Source of the DNA: Rhizophagus irregularis
Taxonomy: Eukaryota; Glomeromycota; Glomeromycetes; Glomerales; Glomeraceae
Assembly: GCF_026210795.1 (NCBI RefSeq)
Contig: NC_089437.1
Location: forward strand, 186,001 to 250,000
Direction: 5' to 3'
DNA: 64,000 nucleotides
Within the stretch, counting starts at the first letter, position 1, and each line of letters opens with the position of its first letter. Shown here in pieces: positions 2,928 to 60,548 of this stretch. The translations under genes and the position numbers were made by a program. A model generated the notes under the pieces. It was not told the origin of the DNA and ran no database searches. It was given only the letters and a program-made list of their open reading frames with translations.

Positions 2928-3296
2928 ATGCCTACAAATGAGGCAGCAGCAATATATTGTCAATTATTACATGCATTAATTGCAGCAAATGTTCTATTTT
3001 ATTTTGTAAATAATCCTGAAGTTCACAAATTATTCAAAGTGTTGCAACCTTCAAACATCCTTCCATCAAGAAAATGGATTAGTATAAATCAAGTTCATAA
3101 AGAAGTAGAACTTGAAATAAAACATCTGCTACTCAGAAATAAAGCTAAGTACTTAACATTAACTGAGGACAGATGGACAAATGTATCTCAACATAGTATG
3201 TACTCACTCATCAGGAGATTATATGAGGCAAATATTAGCGTAAAGTTGTCAAATATGTATAATCCCTGGAAATTTACACCCTGTAAAAATCTATAA
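2928..3296 (+). pseudogene. hAT-type transposase fragment
   Basis: A 122-codon open frame that looks like an internal fragment of a hAT-family (DUF659-like) transposase. It has ALIAANVLFYFVNNPEVHKL, LPSRKW, then a helix rich in E/K, and KYLTLTEDRWTNVSQHSMYS, the segment just before the RNase-H fold with the DxW-type motif. After this the similarity stops and the frame ends in unrelated sequence, so most of the catalytic domain and the dimerisation tail are missing. No terminal repeats could be assigned. It is a decayed remnant. Family assignment is from recognition of the motif, not from a search. Confidence 0.62.
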
Positions 3297-3956: not shown

Positions 3957-4322
3957 TGATGGATTATTTAATAATTTCAGAATTACAAACATATTTTGAT
4001 TTTCTCTTTTCCAATTTTGATTTTATAATCCCATTCATTTATGTAGTATCCATCAATCCATCTTGCACTATACACTTTGTCAAACTCATCATCTGCAACA
4101 TATTTAATATCATCAAGTCTATAATAATAAGGTATCCATTCTAATGCATTTTTTTACAAAAGAAGTATGTAGTGATAGCTGAGTATTTTGAATAAATTTA
4201 TTAATATGATAATTCCTGCTAGTCCAATTTTTAAAATTTTGCTTAAACCATTTTGCGTTACATTCATAGTCACAATTACATGACTTAATCAGCTTTTTAA
4301 CACTTTTGATAAAAGAATCCAT
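3957..4322 (-). pseudogene. kinase N-lobe exon fragment (copy of first exon of the 53.4 kb gene)
   Basis: Inverted duplicate of exon 1 of the kinase gene at 53,379. The ATG is at 4322 and the product begins MDSFIKSVKKLIKSC, then FKQNFKNWTSRNYHINKFIQ. The reading frame breaks near 4150, where the adenine run has seven A instead of the six in the intact copy. In the shifted frame the similarity continues as NALEWIPYYYRLDDIKYVAD, a degenerate glycine loop (EFDKVYSARW) and a VILK strand, ending near 3957 without the rest of the kinase. It is not expected to make a functional protein. Confidence 0.8.
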
Positions 4323-5490
4323 TGAGAGTTTTTTCAACTAAAATTCATACGTATAAAAGAAAAAAAAATAAAAAAAAATTTACAGATAGTAAAAAAATTT
4401 TGATTCTTTATAAATGGAAGAACAATATTTATGCATAATTACTATGTAATGCCTGATCATTGTAATTTTTATACGAATTCAACCAGATCATTTTTGCACG
4501 TAAATTTTTCTAAAACAACACAATTATTAAGAGTTCGTTACAATAAGTTAGATACATGGATGAAGCATTTTTTAGGTTATTTATATTCTATATTATATGT
4601 TTATAAAGTTATGTGTTAATTATCCATTATCTAAAGAATACTGTAATAAATATATATATTTAATCATGAAAGATCATCACATGGAAATAATTATTGTTCC
4701 TAATTTTTCTTAAAACTTGAAAAAAGTACAGAATCTGAAGGTCATTAAAAAATTATTATAATTACTAGTAGTCTAGTAAAACCTTTTACATAATTCTTGA
4801 GAAAATTTGGTGAAGTTGGTTTTATTTTTTTATTTCACTAGTTCCTTATTGAAGAAACAATATGGACAATTACCAAATAGGAATTGTTTGAATTTTGTTT
4901 GAGGAAACTTGACAAAATTTGGAGTACTGTTAAGTTATAAATACTCTTATTGGTTGGTTCTTTATTGTAGGAACAATGCTCAAAATAATTATTCTCATTA
5001 TTTTTTATTTTTCATTATTAGCTTGGAGAAAAGAATGCCGAAAGTCTGTACAATGAGTCTAACTTTAATCGAAATTCAATATATGGTTAGTTTGATGCCA
5101 GCATTTTTATAACATTACATATTAAGTTTATGGTTACTTTTAAGTTTAAAATATGACAAGTTCTATGCATTGGATCCGCAATCAGCTCCTACATAGATGA
5201 TATGTTAATATATATTGATGATGAAAAAAAAAACAAAAGGATGAACATGTACGCAATAAAATGGGAAAATGGTTAATTAACATTTACTTTTGATTTTTAT
5301 TTCTCAGTAAATTAGTAGATTTTCTTTATGGGAGTTTGTTCTTTTTTGATCTACCATTTTTTTTTCTCTTTTAAAAGATTATCTGAATCAAATGAATTAA
5401 ACAAATTATCTCAAGAGCAATATAATTCTCTAATTATATTTTGGGTTATTTTTTTAAATTTGGAATTTTTATCGGTATTGCAAAGGAAAA
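3957..5490 (-). repeat. left copy of an inverted segmental duplication
   Basis: This segment matches, in inverted orientation, about 51,650-53,735. Landmarks shared by both copies are the kinase exon 1, the block around GGAAGAACAATATTTATGCA, an A/T-rich stretch whose frame reads SYKY...LVLYCRNNAQNNY, and a terminal block with TTTGGGTTATTTTTTTAAAT near 5450. The copies differ by point changes, small indels and one 172-bp insertion found only in the right copy. Small open frames in the duplicated flank look non-coding. Confidence 0.85.
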
Positions 5491-42489: not shown

Positions 42490-44317
42490 TCATTTAGTTC
42501 TATAAAAAAATAATAAATTAGATATAGAATATTAATAAAACTACAAATAATAATAACTTACCTAATTCGCTTAATTTCACAATCTAAGCATTCTGAAACT
42601 GTATATTATGTATTTATAGTATTTAAACATTAATAAATTTAAATAAAATAATTATAATAATGAAGGGAATACTTACTTGGATTTGCTGATGTTGATTGAG
42701 CAGTATAACTAGTGTCTATTAAAAAACAAATAACATTAAAAATGTAAAATGGATTATATGATAAAACAAAATTAAATTTAATTACTTGAACTGAATAGAA
42801 AAGATGATAAATCTAAAGAATCTACTGGTTTTGGAAGATTTTTGAAATTTAAAAGTCTACTAGTATAAATTGCTTGTGGATGCGTTTTGAAACGTTTGTA
42901 TTTATCTTCATTTGATCTGTTTTCGAATTTTTCTTTACTAATTTTATCATATTCTTTTATTTGAAAATAAAGTTCGCATGTGTTATAATTATACAATCCT
43001 TTTAGTGTTTGATACAACTCTTTAATGGTTGGTCTATTTTTTATTTCAGCATTCCAACATTTAATTATCAAATCTGCAAGTAACTTTGGCATGTCTTTAG
43101 AAATTGTTGGTCTAAGTCCTTTACATATTTCAATAGCTAAAAATTCATCATGAGGAATATCATTAAAAGGAATTTCTTCAGAAAGAAATTCGTTCATTAT
43201 CATTCCAAATGAGTAAATATCTGCTGCTTTTGTATATTGTTGTCCACGTAAAACTTCTGGTGCCATATATGGTAATACTCCATAAATTCCTTCTTCTTTA
43301 ACTGTTTGCTTTATATTTGCTGGTCGACACATTCCTAAATCACTTATATATGGAATACTTGAAAATAATATATTACCTGAATGAAAATCTTTGTGAACTT
43401 TTTCAGCATTATGAATATCTAAAAGTCCTCTTGCAATTCGTTGTAAGTCAAACATTTTTGATCCATATTTTATATAATTTTTAGATTTATTTAAATAATT
43501 TCTCAAATTTCCATCATTACAATAATATATAACCATCATATACTCTTTATTATTTGGATCTTGAGTAATTCCATAACATTGAACAATATCTACAAAATAA
43601 ATCTGAAGATGAGATTTAATCTAATTATCATCAAAAAGGAAAAATTTTATTAATAAATAAATGTAAATAACAATCTTTATATATAAGACAAAGTAAGTTT
43701 AAATTACCTCATTTAAAAAATCTGAACATATATCAGAAGAATTATCCAAACTTTTCAATGCATATTTACTATAGTATTGCTCTCTATACCATTTTTGATT
43801 TTCAATATCCCAATGATCAATATATCCTTCAGGCCATTCAGCTGAATAAATCTTACTAAAACCACCTTCCGCAATATAAGTGATATTTTGAAATTTTTCA
43901 AAAGGTATCCATTCAAGATATTTTGTATAATGTACAGCATTAAGTTGTGATTGCTGTATAAATTCATCAATATCTTTATTTCCACTAGTCCAATTTTTAA
44001 AGTTATCTTTAAGTCTTTTAGCATTACAAGATTGACACCATTTGTATCCTGTGCCAGGTTCTTTACATTCTCCACATATTCCATATGCTTGTTTTCTTTT
44101 TTCTAAATCTCCTATATAAACTACTCTATTATCTACATTTTCTGATTCAATAGTTGAATCAATAGTAGGAATTGTAACATGGAGCTTTTAATAGACAAAA
44201 AATTATTAATATTTTTAACTACAAAATTCAATAAAATAAAAATAATTAATTAAAATATTAAATTGCTATTACCTGATATTTATTTTCATTAGTATTCACC
44301 CATGAATTTTTTGGCAT
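42490..44317 (-). CDS. TKL-type protein kinase, six exons
   Basis: Predicted exons: 44317-44273, 44184-43708, 43620-42786, 42715-42677, 42598-42562 and 42499-42490, about 480 residues. N-terminus MPKNSWVN; a four-cysteine CxxC...CxxC zinc-ribbon-like motif (residues 52-68) precedes DNFKNWTSGNKDIDEFIQ, a hallmark of this fungal kinase family. The glycine loop is AEGGFSKIYS (about 119-128) and the beta-3 lysine is in YALKSL (K159). The exon-3 start gives IKSHLQIYFVDIVQCYGITQ. The catalytic loop is HKDFHSGN (D252, N257), the DFG equivalent is DLG (D268), and APE lies at 294-296. All catalytic residues are present. The short 3' exons (NTSYTAQSTSANP, ISECLDCEIKRI) have good splice signals, but the very last junction is uncertain: another frame after it reads ELNEICQDDEHNI. 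Confidence 0.82.
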
Positions 44318-51649: not shown

Positions 51650-53735
51650 AAACCTTTGAACTTTGCATACCTGTAAAAAATTACAGATTTAAAAAAAAAA
51701 TAACCCAAAACATAATTATTACTCTTGAGATAATTGGTTTAATTTATTTAATTCAGATAATCTTTTAAAAAGAGAAAAAAACATGGTAGATTACTCCCAT
51801 AAAGAAAATCTATTAATTTACTAATTTACTGAGAAATATTATAATTTCCCTTTTTTATAAAAATCAAAAATAAATGGTAATTAACCATTTTTACCATTTA
51901 TTACGTAACGTATTCATCCTTTTTTTTTCATCACTTTTTTTTTCAATATATTAACATGCCATTATGTAGGAGCTTATTGCGGATTAAATGCATAAAGCTT
52001 TGACATATTTTAAACTTAAAAGTAAGCATAAGCTTAAGATTATTATAAATGTTATAAAAATGTAAGCATCAAACTAACCATATATTAAATTTCGATTAAA
52101 GTTAGACTCATTGCACAGACTTTCAGCATTTCTTTTCTCCAAGCTAAAGAGTTGAATAATGAAAAATAAAAAATAATGAAAATAATTATTTTGAGCATTA
52201 TTCCTACAATAAAGAACCAACCAACAAGCCAACAAGAAGTATTTATAACTTAACAGTACTTCAAATTTTGTCAAGTTTCCTCAGACAAAATTCAAACAGT
52301 TTCTATTTGGAAATCGATTCTTCAATTAGGTTTAGTGTTCTAATCCGATCATCATCCGTCATTCGAAAAATCCGCCGGTTATGGACAACGTCTGAGTGAT
52401 GCGTTATTGTCCATTATTCAATTATCCGAGAAATCCAATAAAATCTGAATTTTTGGCGGATGTCCGTAATCCGACGGATAGCAGTTTAACGGATTGGAAC
52501 ACAAGTGATTGGTTGCATAAGGAACTAGTGAAATGAAAAATGAACTAACTCCGCCTAATTTTCTCAAGAATTATATAATAGGGTTCTATTAGACTACTAG
52601 TAATTATAATAATTTTTTTATGACCTTCAGGTTCTGTACTTTTTCAAGTTTTCAGAAAAATTAGGAACAAAAAGTTATTTCCATGTGATGATTTCTTTCA
52701 TGATTAAATATATCATTGACTGATATTTATTACAGTATTCTTTAGATAATAGATAATTAACTTATAGCTTTATAAATATATAATATACTATATAAATAAC
52801 CTAAAAAATGCTTCATCCATGTATCTATTTTAACGAACTCTTAATAATTGTGTTATTTTAGATAAAATTACGTGCAAAACTGCAAAAATGATCGGTAAAC
52901 AATTGGTTGAATTTGTATAAAAATTTAGCAATCATGATCAGCAATACATAATTACGCATAAGTATTGTTCTTATACAGTATATCGACAGATAATTAGTTT
53001 AAATAACGAATAATTAGCTTATAACTTTATAAACATACAGTAAAATATATAGCATGAATAACATAAAAAAATGCCCCATAATAATGAACGTATTATGTTT
53101 TAGTTCAAAAGGTTTCATCAATTTTTTTAATATTCGTGTTATTTTAGAAAAATTCACGTGCGTTTATTTAAAATGATCGGCAAATAATTTGATTGAAATT
53201 TTTATAAAATTTTCAGCCCACATTACAATGATCAGCAATACATAATTATGCAAATTATGCATAAATATTGTTCTTCCATTTATAAAGCATCAAGTGAAAT
53301 CGTTTTTTTCTTACTACTGCAATTTTTTTTTTTATTTCTTTCTTTTAAACGTACCAATTTTAGTTGATAAAACTCTTAATGGATTATTCTATCAAAAGTG
53401 ATAAAAAGCTGATTGAATCATGTGTTTGTGACTATAATTGTAACACAAAACGGTTTATACAAAATTTCAATAATTGGACCAGTGGTAATAATGATATTGA
53501 TAAATTTATTCAAAATACTCAGCTATCAGAACATACTTATAAGGTAAAAAATGCATTAGAGTGGATACCTTATGATAGACTTGATGATATTAAATATGTT
53601 GCAGATTATGAGTTTGGCAAAGTGTATAGTGCAAAATGGACTGATGGATGCATAAATAAATGGGATGGTGCAAATCAAAATTGGAAAAGAAAAGATCAAA
53701 ATATGTTTGTAAATCTGAGAATTTTAAATAATTCA
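51650..53735 (+). repeat. right copy of inverted segmental duplication
   Basis: Inverted match of 3,957-5,490. It runs from about 51,650 through the upstream region of the kinase gene and into its first exon. It is longer than the left copy mainly because of a 172-bp insertion (52,333-52,504) and unmatched A/T-rich stretches around 52,720-53,000. As the right copy includes the promoter and the intact exon 1 of the gene, it is the likely source. Confidence 0.8.
52333..52504. mobile_element. 172-bp MITE-like insertion in one duplicate
   Basis: Ends TAGTGTTCTAATCCG and CGGATTGGAACACAA form an inverted repeat (GTGTTC(C/T)AATCCG). Internal GGATTACGG/CGGACATCC-type motifs repeat. The inverted paralogous segment near 4,850 lacks this insert. 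The target duplication is not clean. The short CGGAT-rich design is like that of the other small elements here. Confidence 0.62.
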
Positions 53736-56700
53736 GCAAGTATTACATTAGAATTTATAAATAAGGTATAATAAATTTATCATAATTTCATTTTTTTTAT
53801 TATAATATATTAATTGCATTAAACTGTGCCATTTTGTAAAAAAAAATATTCCAATTGTTTAAATAACAAATAGTAACTTTAATATATTGTAGATTGCAAT
53901 ATCTCATAAAGTTTATGGAATAACTCAAGATCAAGAAACCAAGAACTATATGGTTGTTTTGAAAGATATATGTGAAAAATGTAAAATAATGTGTAATTCA
54001 ATGTATTTTCAACAAAATTTCAATAATTGGACCAGTGGTAATAATGATATTAATAAATTTATTCAAAATACTCAGCTATCAGAACATACTTATTATAAGG
54101 TAAAAAATGCATTAGAATGGATACCTTATGATAGACTTTATGATATTGAATATATTACAGATGATGATAAGTTTGGTAAAGTGTACAGAGCAAATTGGGC
54201 TGATGGATGTATTTGGTATTGGAATAAAATAAATAAAAATTGGAAAAGAAAAGATCAAAATATGTTTGTAATTCTGAAAATTTTAAATAATTCAGCAAGT
54301 ATTACACTAGAACTTATAAATAAGGTATAGTAAATTTATCATGAGTTTCATCTTTTTTGTTAATTGTAATATATTAATTATTAAACTGTGCCATTTTGTA
54401 AAAAAAATTCCAGTTATTTTAAAAACAAATAGTTGAAAATTTTATTTTTACTAATATTTCTAACTTTAATATATTGTAGATTGCAGTATCTCATAAAGTT
54501 TATGGAATAACTCAAGATCAAGAAACCAAGAACTATATGGTTGTTTTGAAAGATATATGTGAAAAATGTAAAATAATGTGTAATTCAATATATTTTCAAC
54601 GAGATTTCAATAATTGGACCAGTGGTAATAATGATATTGATGAATTTATTCAAAATACTCAGATATCAGAACATGATGATATAAAGAGGGCATTAGAATG
54701 GATACCTTATAATAAACTTTATAATATTAAATATATTGCAGATGATAAGTCTGGCAAAATGTATAAAGCAAGGTGGACTGATGGATGTATAAGTGATAAT
54801 AGTTGGAACAGTAGTAGTTGGGATGATGAAAATCAAAATTGGGAAAGAGAAGATCAACATATGTTTGTAATTCTGAAAATTTTAAATAATCCAGCAAGTA
54901 TTACATTAGAATTATTTATAAATAAGGTATAATGAATTTATCATAATTTTCATTTTTTTATTAATTATAATATGTTAATTGCATTAAACTGTGCCATTTT
55001 GTAAAAAAAATTCCAGTTATTTTAAAATACAAATAGTTGAAAATTTTATTTTTACTAATATTTCTAACTTTAATATATTGTAGATTGCAGTATCTCATAA
55101 AGTTTATGGAATAACTCAAGATTCAAAAACTGAGAACTATATGGTTGTTTTGAAAGATATATGTGAAAAATGTAAAATAATGTGTAATTCAATGTATTTT
55201 CAACGAAATTTCAATAATTGGACCAGTGGTAATAATGATATTGATAAATTTATTCAAAATACTCAGCTATCAGAACATACTTATAAGGTAAAAAATGCAT
55301 TAGAGTGGATACCTTATGATAGACTTTATGATATTAAATATATTACAGATGATGATAAGTTTGGCAAAGTGTACAGCGCAAATTGGACTGATGGATGCAT
55401 AAATGGTGCAAATCAAAATTGGAAAAGAAAAGATCGAAATATGTCTGTAATTCTGAAAATTTTAAATAATCCAGCAAGTATTACATTAGAATTTATAAAT
55501 AAGGTATAATAAATTTATCAAAAGTTTCATTTCTTCGTAAATTATAATATAAATTAATCACATTATATTGTATCATTTGATGGAAAAAAATTATCAGTTG
55601 CTTTAAATGACAATTAATCGACAATTTTATTTTTACTAATATTTCTAACTTCAATATATTATAGATTGCAATATCTCATAAAGTTTATGGAATAACTCAA
55701 GATCCAAAAACTGAGAACTATATGGTTGTTTTTAAAGATATATGTGGAAAATGCGATAAAGTGTGTAATTCAATGTATTTTCAACGAAATTTCAATAATT
55801 GGACCAGTGGTAACAATGATATTGATAAATTTATTCAATATACTCAGCTATCAGCTCATGATGATATAAAGAGAGCATTAGAATGGATACCTTATAATAA
55901 ACTTTTTAATATTAAATATATTGCAGATTGTGAGTTTGGCAAAGTGTATAGTGCAAAATGGACTAATGGATACATAAATGAATGGGATGATGAAAATCAA
56001 AATTGGAAAAGAAAAGATCAAAATATGTTTGTAATTCTGAAAATTTTAAAAAATCCAGCAAGTATTACATTAGAATTTATAAATAAGGTATAATGAATTT
56101 ATCAAAGTTTCATGTTTTTGCGAATTATAATATAAATTAATCACATTATATATTGTGTCATTTGATGAAAAAAAAAAATTACCAGTTGTTTTAAATAGCA
56201 AATAGTTGAAAATTTGATTTTTTTACTAATATTTTAACTTTAACATACTGTAGATTGCAGTTCCTTATAAAGTTTATGGAATAACTCAAGATCCAAAAAC
56301 TAAGAACTATATGGTGGTTTTGAATTATATATGTGAAAAATGTAATGAAGTGTGCAATTCAATGTATTTTCAACAAAATTTCAGTGATTGGACCAGTGGT
56401 AATAATGATATTGATAAATTTATTCAAAATTCTCAACTATCAGCTCATGATGATATAAAGAGGGCATTAGAATGGATACCTTATAATAAACTTTATAATA
56501 TTAAATATATTGCAGATGATAAGTTTGGCAAAATGTATGGAGCAAGTTGGACTGATGGATGTATAAGTGATAATAGTTGGAACAATAGTTGGGATAATGA
56601 AAATCAAAATTGGAAAAGAAGAGATCAAAATATGTTTGTAATTCTGAAAATTTTAAATAATCCAACAAGTATTACACCAGAATTTATAGATAAGGTATAA

Positions 56701-59700
56701 TAAATAATGTGTTATTTTGAAAAGTTCCATTTTTTTGAAAATTGTAATACATATTAAAAATTGTACTGCACCATTAATGTGACCACTGATCATTTAAAAG
56801 GGTAATTAGTTAAAATTTTATTTTACTAATATTATTCATTTTATTACACAGATTGCAATACCTCATGAAGGTTACGGAATAACTCAAGATCCAGAAACCA
56901 AGAATTATATAGGGATTTTTAATGATAAATATGGAAAATATGTGCATAATGCAATGTGTTTTCAGCAAAATTTCAATAATTGGACTAGTGGTAATAATGA
57001 CATTGATAAATTTATTCAAGATGCTCAAAAATCATATACAAATAATGTATTAGAATGGATACCTTATGATAGGTTTTATGATATTAAATATATTGCAAAA
57101 GGAGGGTTTGGAAAAGTATATAGAGCAAAATGGATTGATGGTTATATAGATAAATGGGATGACTATGACCAAAATTGGAAAAGGAAGGATCAAAACATGG
57201 TTGTAGCTTTGAAAAGTTTAAATAATTCAAAAAATGTTACATTGGAATTTATGAATGAGGTAAATTAGTCAATTTATTACCAAATTTAAATTATTTAATT
57301 ATTAGGATTAATACTTATTTATACATATACAGATTACATTACATTACAAAGTAAATTCGTACAAATGTATTATTAAACTTTATGGAATAACTCAAGATCC
57401 AAAAGAAAAAAATTACATTATGGTTTTAGATTATGCAGAGCATGGGAATTTACGAAATTATTTAGATATAAAATATAATTATTTAAATTGGAATAATAAG
57501 ATCAGTTATTTACATAAAATTGCACATGGACTTAGAGATATACATGAAAAAGAATTAATTCATCGAGATTTGCATATTGGTAATATATTAAGGCTTAAAA
57601 ATCACACTTGTATAACTGATATGGGATTATGTAAACCTGCAGACTATAATGCACCTGAGAATGCAAAAAACAAATTATATGGTATATTACCTTATATTGC
57701 GCCTGAAATTTTACGTGGACAAAATTATACCAAAGCTGCAGATATTTATAGTTTTGGTATAATTATGTATGAAGTAATTTCTGGATTACCTCCATATTAT
57801 GATGTTGGTCATGATATAAATTTAGCAGTGAAAATTTGTAAAGGATTTAGACCAAGGTTTAACATTAAAGTACCCCAATTGATTGTGCATCTAATTAAAA
57901 AATGCTTGGATGCAAATCCATTAAATCGACTAAAAGCAGAAGAAATTGAAAGGACTTTAAGTCAATGGTTTAGAGAATCATTTGATCCTGGATCTAATAA
58001 ATATGCGGAGATAAACAATCAAATAAAAGAAGCAGAAATGATTAATAAAAAATCACCGATTAATAGTACTAATAGTCTAGGAATATCATATAAAACACAT
58101 TCAGAAGCAATTTATACCAGTAGATTACTCAATTTTAGTAATCTTCCTGAGCCAAAAAATTCTGATGATTATTATGAAGAAAATGATAATATAATTAGCA
58201 TGAAATTTTCGGGTATTTATTAGTAAAAAAATTTCATTGTCCGGAGCGAAGCTTAAAGGACTATGTCAAAAATAGTGTCACATGACGATATGCCGTCACG
58301 TCATTGAAATTTCGCTGAAAATAAATTGTGATACACCAGATAAACAAGATAAAGAACCTTTTTTTTTTTGTTCCGGACTTATAACGGTTTCCGTTTCCTA
58401 GTATTAATTAAAACAATAAAAAGATATTATTGGGCGTTTTTTATAAAACTAGTAACGATTTTGTTGATCATTTGTTGATCATTTATTTTAAATTTATTAT
58501 AAATTTTGTCACGAGATTTTCTATGGAAATCATTTCTCAATTTGTTATTAAAACACCTGCTGAATTGCCTCGAAATTGAAAATCATTTCCCTTTTTATAA
58601 AAAAATTTCCTTTTTGGTAAAAAACTCTCAGATTAATCTTATATAACTTTATGTAAATGTCAATGACAATGTCAATGTCAGTGACAATGTCAATGTCAAT
58701 GTCAATGTCAATGTCAATGTCAATGACAATGACAATGACAATGACAATGAAAAAAACTTCTAATGCCAACTTTTCGCAAAAACTCTTCCTGTGCCACTAA
58801 AAGTCCCTGTTAAATTGTTGCATCATTCAATATTTGCATAATTTCATTTTTTTGTTGATCATTAAAATTTCATAAAATATTGCAAAAAAATAAAAAAATT
58901 GTAAAAAAAACGTTTCAGCGTTTTTTCATATAATATTATTAAAAAAAATGCCAAAAACTTTTTTTTTTGCATTACTATTAAGAAAAAAACGTTTTGGCAT
59001 TTTTCCATATAAAATTATAAAAAAAATAACACAAAAACGTTTTTTCTTCATTTTTTATTTTTTTAACAAAAAATGTCAAGACTGACGTTTTTAATTAAAA
59101 AAAACCAATATTTTTTTGATTTTTAATCACAAAAATGTCAAGTCTGACGTTTTTAATTAAAAAAATCATTTTTTTTGATTTTTTAATTACAAAAACGTCA
59201 AGTCTGACATTTTTAATTAAAAAAAACCAATATTTTTTTTTGATTTTTAATCACAAAAACGTCAAGTCTGACGTTTTTAACTAAAAAAATCAATTTTTTT
59301 GATTTTTAATTACAAAATTGTCAAATCTAACGTAAAAAATAATTTTTTGAATCATAAAAATGTCAAATCTGACGTTTTTAATTAAAAAATCATTTTTTTT
59401 TATTTTTAATCACAAAAAAGTCATGTCTGACGTTTTTAACTAAAAAAATCATTTTTTTTTGATTTTTTAATTAAAAAACGTCAAGTCTGACGTTTTTTAA
59501 CTAAAAAAGTCATTTTTTTGATTTTTTTAATTACAAAAACGTCAAGTCTGACGTTTTTTAACTAAAAAAGTCATTTTTTTGATTTTTTAATTACAAAAAC
59601 GTCAAGTCTGACGTTTTTTAACTAAAAAAGTCATTTTTTTGATTTTTTAATTACAAAAATGTCAAGCCTGACGTTTTTTAACTAAAAAAGTCATTTTTTT

Positions 59701-60548
59701 GTTTTTTTAATTACAAAAATGTCAAGTCTGACGTTTTTTAACTAAAAAAGTCATTTTTTTGTTTTTTTAATTACAAAAACGTCAAGCCTGACGTTTTTTA
59801 ACTAAAAAAGTCATTTTTTTGTTTTTTTAATTACAAAAACGTCAAGTCTGACGTTTTTAATAAAAAAATCAATTTTTTCTATATTTAATTATAAAAACGT
59901 TTGATGACCCGACCCAAAATTTTCGAGTCAATCTGACAGTATAATGATTATAACTCACTAATAATTACCAAGTTACTCTAGTTGTATAATATACTAATAA
60001 GGTTCTAATTATTAAATAGATTCCTTACAAATTGATATTTCTCAATTGAAAAATAACAATTCTTTTGAACTAAAAAATTCTGATGATAGTTATGAAAAGA
60101 ATGATAATATTAAAATGGAATCTTCAGGTATATTTTTTAAAAAAAAAATTTAATAAAATTAATTATAAAATATTAATAAATTTTTTAATTCATTAAATAG
60201 AATTCTTACAAATTGATATTTTACAATTAAAAATTGATAATAATAATTTTCCTGAACAAGTTAATTCTGATGATTCTTACGAAAAAAATGATAATACGAA
60301 CAGTATGAATTCTTCAGGTATTGATTAATAAAAAATAACCAGATTATTATTTAATAATAAAAAACACTAATTTCTTTCTATTAAATAGAATCACTACAAA
60401 TTGATATTTCTCAATTGAACACTAATAAAGATGGTAAATATTCCTTAGATATGGATAAAAATAATCAAGACGATTGTATAATATACTTATTTTATTTGTT
60501 CATTTTTTAGACTGGGATAGCGGTACTGGGGGCGAAGAAAAAATTTAG
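53379..60548 (+). CDS. TKL-type kinase with seven repeated N-lobe modules and one C-lobe, 12 exons
   Basis: Exons: 53379-53765, 53893-54324, 54480-54926, 55084-55503, 55665-56087, 56254-56694, 56852-57259, 57333-58212, 60020-60127, 60201-60317, 60389-60475 and 60511-60548; 1,395 residues. Exons 1-7 are phase 0 and homologous. Each carries NF(N/S)(N/D)WTSGNNDI(D/N)(K/E)FIQ, LEWIPY, a glycine-loop region and the beta-3 strand. Exons 2-7 also begin with the beta-4/5 piece YGITQD, and exons 2-6 carry CxxC. Modules 1-6 have lost loop glycines (for example DDDKFGKVYS) and module 1 has Arg for the beta-3 Lys. Module 7 is canonical (AKGGFGKVYR, 932-941; K971). Exon 8 has HRDLHIGN (D1065, N1070), DMG (D1082) and APE (1109-1111). 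Exons 9-11 are phase-1 tail repeats (LQIDIxQL...NSDDSYEKNDN) and the end is YWDSGTGGEEKI. ATG 53,379 is chosen; an upstream in-frame TTG is ignored. Alternatively translation ends in intron 8 (58,223). Confidence 0.8.
58660..58752. repeat. hexanucleotide microsatellite
   Basis: About 15 units of GTCAAT/GACAAT in intron 8 of the kinase gene. The open frame it creates on the minus strand (IDIDID) is an artefact of the repeat. Confidence 0.9.
59060..59900. repeat. array of about 14 units, each with a TGACGT palindrome
   Basis: Satellite-like array in the 1.8-kb intron 8 of the kinase gene. Each unit has a palindrome AAAACGTCA-AGTC-TGACGTTTT followed by AACTAAAAAAGTCATTTTTT-like spacer. From about 59,465 to 59,870 the period is exactly 60 bases with near-identical units. 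To the left the units are shorter or longer and more diverged (CGTCA becomes TGTCA, and TCATG or TCAAATC cores appear). Just upstream (58,890-59,050) related AACGTTTT and ACGTTTTGGCATTTT motifs appear, perhaps older relatives. Confidence 0.92.

Follow-up and report, generated by a model that had tools for sequence, protein, structure and literature searches.

The window analysed here is a 64,000-nucleotide stretch of the Rhizophagus irregularis genome (NC_089437.1, positions 186,001 to 250,000; G000:C9:186001-250000 within 146,748,485 bases in 32 contigs). It carries an eight-exon gene whose predicted product opens with six half-domains resembling the N-lobe of a protein kinase, each with decayed catalytic motifs, and closes with one complete kinase of the TKL type. 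As read from the sequence, this arrangement of tandem 'pseudo-N-lobes' ahead of a TKL-type kinase is a recurrent gene architecture, found in 24 further arrays of the same genome.

Seven consecutive exons of 387-447 bases, in phase 0 on both sides, lie at the coordinates where an earlier note on this DNA had placed them (Table 1). Exons 1-7 each end at a codon edge followed by GT, and exons 2-7 start directly 3' of an AG. All seven encode the WTSGN helix and the LEWIPY segment, and exons 2-7 also carry YGITQD. Exon and structural unit do not coincide: exons 2-7 open with beta-4/5 of the previous module and end just past the alpha-C residue. The module, in this reading, is a whole N-lobe from beta-1 to beta-5, cut close to the hinge and joined there to the start of the following copy. 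In exons 2-6 a CxxCxxxC stub precedes NF..WTSGN; it is lost in exon 7. The strand names and the alpha-C Glu are assigned by general kinase anatomy, which we take to apply here.

The earlier note had reported decayed glycine (Gly) loops in units 1-6 with open frames and intact splice sites, and this is what the sequence holds. The loops read VADYEFGKVY, ITDDDKFGKVY, IADDKSGKMY, ITDDDKFGKVY, IADCEFGKVY and IADDKFGKMY in units 1 to 6, and IAKGGFGKVY in exon 7; the beta-3 segment is VNLR in unit 1, VILK in units 2-6 and VALK in unit 7. Two further features were absent from that note. Where unit 7 has the alpha-C Glu (in NE), each of the six upstream units has Lys (NK or DK), and exons 2-7 open with an alpha-C/beta-4 segment about nine residues shorter than that of the C-lobe exon. 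Since introns 1-6 have a stop as their second codon, retention of any of them would truncate the chain.

Unit 7 proved as canonical as described, and its C-lobe as complete. Joined to exon 8, the N-lobe of exon 7 matches PF07714 (TKL-type) with an E value of 1.5e-46, identifying a bilobed kinase domain; exon 7 alone gives a weak match to the same family (E 0.018, below Pfam's cut-off). The terminal kinase keeps the Gly loop AKGGFGKV, the VALK Lys, the FMNE Glu, the HRD Asp, and the Asp and Gly of DMG, in which Met replaces Phe. The WTSGN helix, LEWIPY, an intron after the alpha-C residue and the C-lobe are all present, matching the WTSGN kinases of R. irregularis. The frame of exon 8 closes with the stop codon 58221-58223, or may instead be spliced to tail exons near 60.0-60.5 kb.

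Table 1. Features of the window (position 1 is the first base of the 64,000-base stretch)
Feature	Position	Strand	Content
Exon 1	53379..53765	+	Start codon, CxCxxxC stub, WTSGN helix, pseudo-N-lobe 1 (VADYEFGKVY, VNLR, alpha-C Lys)
Intron 1	53766..53892	+	GT-AG, phase 0, second codon after donor a stop (GTA TAA)
Exon 2	53893..54324	+	Short beta-4/5 of module 1 (YGITQD..NYMVVL), CxxCxxxC, pseudo-N-lobe 2
Exon 3	54480..54926	+	Beta-4/5 of module 2, CxxCxxxC, pseudo-N-lobe 3
Exon 4	55084..55503	+	Beta-4/5 of module 3, CxxCxxxC, pseudo-N-lobe 4; query of the clade A genome search
Exon 5	55665..56087	+	Beta-4/5 of module 4, CxxCxxxC, pseudo-N-lobe 5
Exon 6	56254..56694	+	Beta-4/5 of module 5, CxxCxxxC, pseudo-N-lobe 6
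Introns 2-6	54325-54479, 54927-55083, 55504-55664, 56088-56253, 56695-56851	+	Matching place, second codon a stop
Exon 7	56852..57259	+	Beta-4/5 of module 6, linker lacking the Cys pattern, N-lobe canonical (AKGGFGKVY, VALK, alpha-C Glu)
Intron 7	57260-57332	+	Matching place, third codon a stop
Exon 8	57333..58223	+	Full-length beta-4/5, hinge, kinase C-lobe (HRDLHIGN, DMGL, APE)
5' flank	52720-53290		By eye, two diverged copies of a segment of about 300 bases, 5' of exon 1
Repeat	58651-58749		16-copy ATGTCA repeat
Satellite	58900-59900		60-base satellite with inverted CGTCAAGTCTGACG motifs, between the C-lobe exon and the putative tail exons
Putative tail exons	59985-60416		C-terminal (LQIDISQL..SDDSYEKNDN), tandem, 188-base period, apparently phase 1
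Relict	3986-4337	-	Lone array first exon (MDSFIKS..WTSRN), broken by frameshifts
Single kinase	42781-44187	-	Ordinary single-N-lobe kinase, four-Cys stub CGECKEPGTGYKWCQSC, GGF loop, C-lobe HKDFHSGN

A search for further genes with repeated WTSGN exons, as the earlier note had proposed, showed how common the arrangement is. Unit 4 of the window (clade A, defined below), used as the query, gave at least 151 genome matches, 117 of the best 150 lying in same-strand clusters of two or more; a clade B unit used as the query also gave at least 151, with 140 of the best 150 in clusters of two or more. The listed matches fall on 15 contigs for the first query and 12 for the second, and a stop occurs inside two rows of each best-150 list. 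A strict pattern for the junction from beta-5 to the next WTSGN found 209 exact matches in the genome (71 + 138) and its reversed control none. Exact patterns count 1,912 N-lobe head motifs in the genome and 958 copies of HRDLHxGN, a ratio that is only rough because nothing but exact patterns entered it.

Besides the window, 24 arrays were read (L001-L021, L022/L023 as one, L024 and L025), several of them from stretches cut at the 5' end, with first exons seen in part of the set only. All 25 genes have the same layout, namely pseudo modules, then one canonical N-lobe, then the C-lobe, and its presence in 24 other arrays makes both an assembly artefact and a one-off decayed duplication unlikely. 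Module number ranges from 4 to about 21 per gene (about 21 in the clade B gene L022/L023), corresponding to 3 to about 20 upstream pseudo-N-lobes, six in the window. Clade A comprises 22 genes including that of the window, and clade B three genes, with YGISQN and WTSGNEKID. A start codon before the Cys stub recurs in the first exons, and several other arrays begin in a similar way, with M(D/N)..F.KS.KK. In 21 of the 22 clade A genes (L013 differs) the first part of the last N-lobe exon is the coding GIT beta-4/5 of the preceding module. Among the matches listed, many clade B arrays lie at 2.39-3.79 Mb of G000 contig C16 and many clade A arrays at 4.84-5.85 Mb of C2.

Motif loss in these genes follows position. 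The terminal module has a GG loop in all 25, as against 2 of 198 informative upstream modules. In clade A, every one of the 22 terminal modules keeps the GG, the VALK Ala, the Lys and the alpha-C Glu; the informative upstream modules keep GG in 2 of 166, Ala in none, Lys in 154 and Glu in 33, with GG changed to DE, DK, NK and others. Clade B terminal modules have GG in 3/3 and upstream modules in 0/32, the latter mostly retaining Glu (25/32) and often Ala (14/32). Eight of 174 clade A and three of 35 clade B upstream matches were uninformative for motifs, and split modules were counted twice, so that the 174 matches represent 169 modules. Of 19 loci first taken for single kinases, four (L034, L035, L037 and L043) hold two modules within the stretch fetched; L034 and L035 stand outside the motif tally, as the C-lobe pattern missed both.

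The open frames were set against an expectation of neutral drift that used the mutation spectrum of the introns and gave each module half the distance to the nearest module of the same array. On these terms 4.4 of the six upstream modules of the window would be expected to hold a stop and none does (P ~10^-3.7). A first version had covered the window and four hand-picked arrays, none with broken modules, and the test was repeated on every array that offered two or more usable exons, leaving out L012 and L021 (one usable exon each). In the resulting 23 arrays, 119.4 of 170 open upstream exons would be expected to contain at least one stop, and the log10 P values sum to -117, to be taken as an order of magnitude, since exons were entered as open and modules are not independent. 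Because of that selection, the fair comparison is of 119.4 out of 170 expected with about eight broken or partial out of 169 clade A upstream modules. That exon lengths are divisible by three follows from the way the exons were called and carries no weight as evidence; alignment-based indel counts were likewise left unused. The open frame of exon 7 begins within intron 6, so that the length of 115 computed for this intron in the intron-exon comparison is too short. The upstream half-domains are apparently kept as coding sequence. The relict near the left end of the window, for which a scan found no C-lobe nearby, shows what a module looks like when it is not kept.

Amino-acid constraint was estimated by codon fits. 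Upstream modules of six arrays, chosen from the 24, have omega values of 0.31, 0.55, 0.40, 0.33, 0.35 and 0.46; terminal modules have 0.195 and C-lobes 0.157. Median NG86 ratios fall in the same order (terminal 0.34, upstream 0.67, clade B upstream 0.50); these and the regional rates omit modules with more than 25 gap columns. By region, upstream modules are constrained in the WTSGN helix (0.49), beta-1 (0.54), beta-2 (0.31) and beta-3 (0.52); their Gly loop (1.06), beta-2/3 loop (1.42) and 25-32 linker (1.58) change as fast as synonymous sites or faster, and their alpha-C end lies at 0.65. In terminal modules the Gly loop (0.16), beta-3 and the alpha-C end (0.15) all lie at 0.13-0.16, a comparison between sets that are not strictly matched, upstream pairs having been taken within arrays and terminal pairs between genes. 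These regional rates are as would be expected of a kept fold with released chemistry. A decayed local duplication is an unlikely explanation for the upstream units, given the recurrent architecture, the selection against stops, and strands that stay constrained while catalytic sites are released. Intron and exon distances are discordant between modules, so recombination is visible, and all tree-based rates are therefore approximate.

As to history, a tree built without the Gly loop, Ala and Glu columns separates upstream from terminal modules with three changes over 70 sampled clade A rows (L023 and L037 being outside that count), although only 7 of its 88 inner branches are starred and its detail is uncertain. 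Because only three changes separate the two groups, the pseudo-N-lobe probably diverged from the catalytic N-lobe earlier than most of these genes did from one another, and has been amplified since; fresh decay of upstream modules in each gene is not favoured. The C-lobe tree places the array genes in two clades with single-kinase lineages between them, requiring four changes, at least two of them forced by starred branches. An independent origin of the clade A and clade B arrays looked likely on that tree; it is not claimed, because a single clade for all array C-lobes was not rejected by the approximately unbiased (AU) test (p 0.118).

We lean, by a modest amount, towards the view that these genes form a large class in which a row of pseudo-N-lobes is joined to one complete TKL-type kinase and acts as a partner-binding controller. 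The earlier note's picture of a kinase made with six pseudo-N-lobes stands as far as the coding nature of the units goes, given their recurrence in 24 arrays, the selection against stops and the constrained skeleton; that splicing joins the units and that a single chain is translated from them is what we infer. The upstream modules combine motif loss with a constrained skeleton, as a pseudokinase domain would, but have no C-lobe of their own. Such units would no longer bind ATP productively yet keep the N-lobe fold, and could serve as a row of interaction surfaces. The array might then bind partners that normally contact kinase N-lobes, whether siblings within this very large kinase family, their regulators or foreign molecules targeting them, and through avidity or release of restraint control the single terminal catalytic domain, as is proposed for pseudokinase or decoy domains integrated into plant tandem kinases. 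Unit number would grow and shrink through tandem exon duplication and exchange between units.

The closest relatives in anatomy are the TKL-type single-N-lobe kinases of R. irregularis, which share the WTSGN helix, a LEWIPY-like segment, the Cys stub, an apparent intron after the alpha-C Glu and the C-lobe, and differ in having one N-lobe per C-lobe within the stretches fetched. The single kinase of the window is one such gene; its N-lobe and C-lobe frames seem to meet between alpha-C and beta-4, at an apparent intron, as in the array. A profile of the window modules run against PDB sequences is weakly reminiscent of RIPK2-type TKL N-lobes (12 of 13 matches at E up to 10 are RIPK2, the best at E 0.14); RIPK2 is a single ordinary kinase domain. 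JAK (JH2-JH1), obscurin and titin also use a non-catalytic kinase fold as scaffold or regulator. Their pseudokinases are complete domains, and we know of no half-domain concatemer among them. The closest described analogues are the plant tandem kinase or kinase-pseudokinase proteins (WTK) Yr15, Lr9 and Pm57. As described in excerpts of two reports, they likewise combine a catalytic kinase with a decayed copy in one chain, and an integrated decoy hypothesis has been put forward for them (PMC10260399, PMC11153570). Excerpts of the same reports give Lr9 a second kinase with Asp in place of the subdomain III Glu, proposed as a decoy (PMC10260399, PMC11153570), and Pm57 a Ka/Ks of 0.77 for the pseudokinase and 0.14 for the kinase (PMC11153570). 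Those proteins contain whole bilobed domains, two in each of the three; the R. irregularis arrays repeat N-lobes only, 3 to about 20 times. Only about 28 residues separate YGITQD from the next NF..WTSGN, and each gene has one HRD-type motif, after the last module, so no tandem of the plant type is encoded. Because the upstream modules are half-domains, the array proteins are not plant tandem kinases and would at most resemble them in how they work.

A number of results weigh against this proposal, beginning with two given above, the sparsely starred upstream/terminal tree and the imperfectly matched rate sets. A binding or decoy role is argued by analogy. Pfam returned no kinase match for upstream single exons or for one joined two-piece pseudo-N-lobe; the kinship of the upstream modules rests on identity to unit 4 (61-89% for the six other units of the window, exon 7 included). 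Given one exon unit and the seven rows from the window, AlphaFold reached low confidence (pLDDT 34, pTM 0.23). The six upstream modules of the window have an omega of 0.70, not significantly below 1 (2 delta lnL 2.1), and this array alone would therefore not prove amino-acid constraint; between its modules, NG86 ratios span 0.6 to 1.85. Terminal modules, too, have a fast 25-32 linker (1.45), which means that variable loops are not peculiar to the pseudo units. In close pairs, introns have diverged no faster than exons (0.107 vs 0.123), which fits exchange between modules and also weak constraint. The broken or partial modules are those of L002, L003 (two), L007 (two), L013, L015 and L019. Three upstream matches keep GG (L013 at 3121, partial and not informative; L013 at 5164; L020 at 2002), and the last module has GG in three of the four two-module genes, L034 lacking it.

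Two of these loci are unusual in themselves. The L013 matches at 3121 and 5164, on the reverse strand, keep GGFGEVY, have RAKR in place of RAKW, and in the profile match have the beta-3/alpha-C part missing or altered. L034 (C1:5203900-5205900) is a two-module clade B gene whose last N-lobe also has a decayed Gly loop (SKSDFDMIY), and may be a full pseudokinase.

An alternative that we regard as unlikely, though it merits a hearing, is autoinhibition in cis, with pseudo-N-lobes competing with or docking on the terminal N- or C-lobe and module number setting the strength of the brake. Each module stops at about the hinge and might thus, in principle, pair with the C-lobe, and module number does vary from gene to gene among the arrays read; braking by a pseudokinase of the JAK kind is known. 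The upstream modules of the window, however, lack the roughly nine residues of the alpha-C/beta-4 segment that a C-lobe would contact.

The exon structure suggests a different use, as a splicing cassette. With all junctions in phase 0, N-lobe exons may be skipped or chosen by the cell, giving kinases that differ in the number or kind of their N-lobes; any subset of exons 2-7 between exons 1 and 8 stays in frame, and the intron seems to sit at the same place, between alpha-C and beta-4, in the single kinase of the window. Nearly all upstream Gly loops are decayed, however (only two clade A modules keep GG), and most splice choices would therefore yield dead kinases. We consider this quite improbable.

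Equally doubtful, in our judgement, is that the array is tolerated ballast, in which unequal exchange adds N-lobe exons, the terminal kinase alone matters, and the extension is weakly constrained or transcripts start near exon 7. The window omega, indistinguishable from 1, would suit such a history, as would the variable module number and the handful of damaged modules; 19 of 22 clade A terminal exons have a Met in the interval from GIT to WTSGN, in most cases within beta-5, which makes internal initiation at exon 7 possible. Selection against stops, the constrained skeleton of the upstream modules and their standing as a largely separate lineage point the other way, as does the last N-lobe exon, which almost throughout clade A still opens with coding beta-4/5 of the module before it. 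That the assembler multiplied the modules deserves next to no credence: repeats are a classic source of false expansion, but the 25 arrays occupy separate places, differ in their units and introns, and share one ordered anatomy, and an excerpt of Manley et al. reports highly uniform Nanopore and Illumina coverage, at the level of whole scaffolds, for the DAOM197198 assembly, which matches in size (146,773,001 bp, 32 scaffolds; PMC10234402).

The partner-binding proposal can be carried further, to a version that we put forward as speculative and on the whole unlikely. The arrays might be a family of fungal recognition receptors, in which ATP-dead N-lobes, with fast-changing loops and in varying number, serve as evolvable bait and the terminal kinase reports a capture. 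They would be a fungal counterpart of the plant integrated-decoy kinases, would serve to recognise partner, rival or self/non-self in mycorrhizal networks, and would have evolved once or more within one genome.

The kinase expansion of R. irregularis is well known, as excerpts of earlier reports show (PMC8647823, PMC6123716, PMC10234402), and one gives 2,533 kinase genes for its genome (Manley et al., PMC10234402). For genes with pseudo-N-lobe arrays we found no earlier description, in line with the earlier note, which knew of no such kinase; among the papers listed by open-access literature searches none treats N-lobe arrays, which does not prove absence. It is usual to count and study kinases as complete two-lobed domains. 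A genome in which half-domain repeats precede single kinases by the hundred suggests that the N-lobe is usable as a stand-alone repeat unit, and because Pfam did not recognise the upstream modules tested, a major architecture may escape domain annotation of R. irregularis. That pseudo-N-lobe arrays serve in sensing or regulation is a concrete, testable idea for part of the kinase expansion of arbuscular mycorrhizal fungi.

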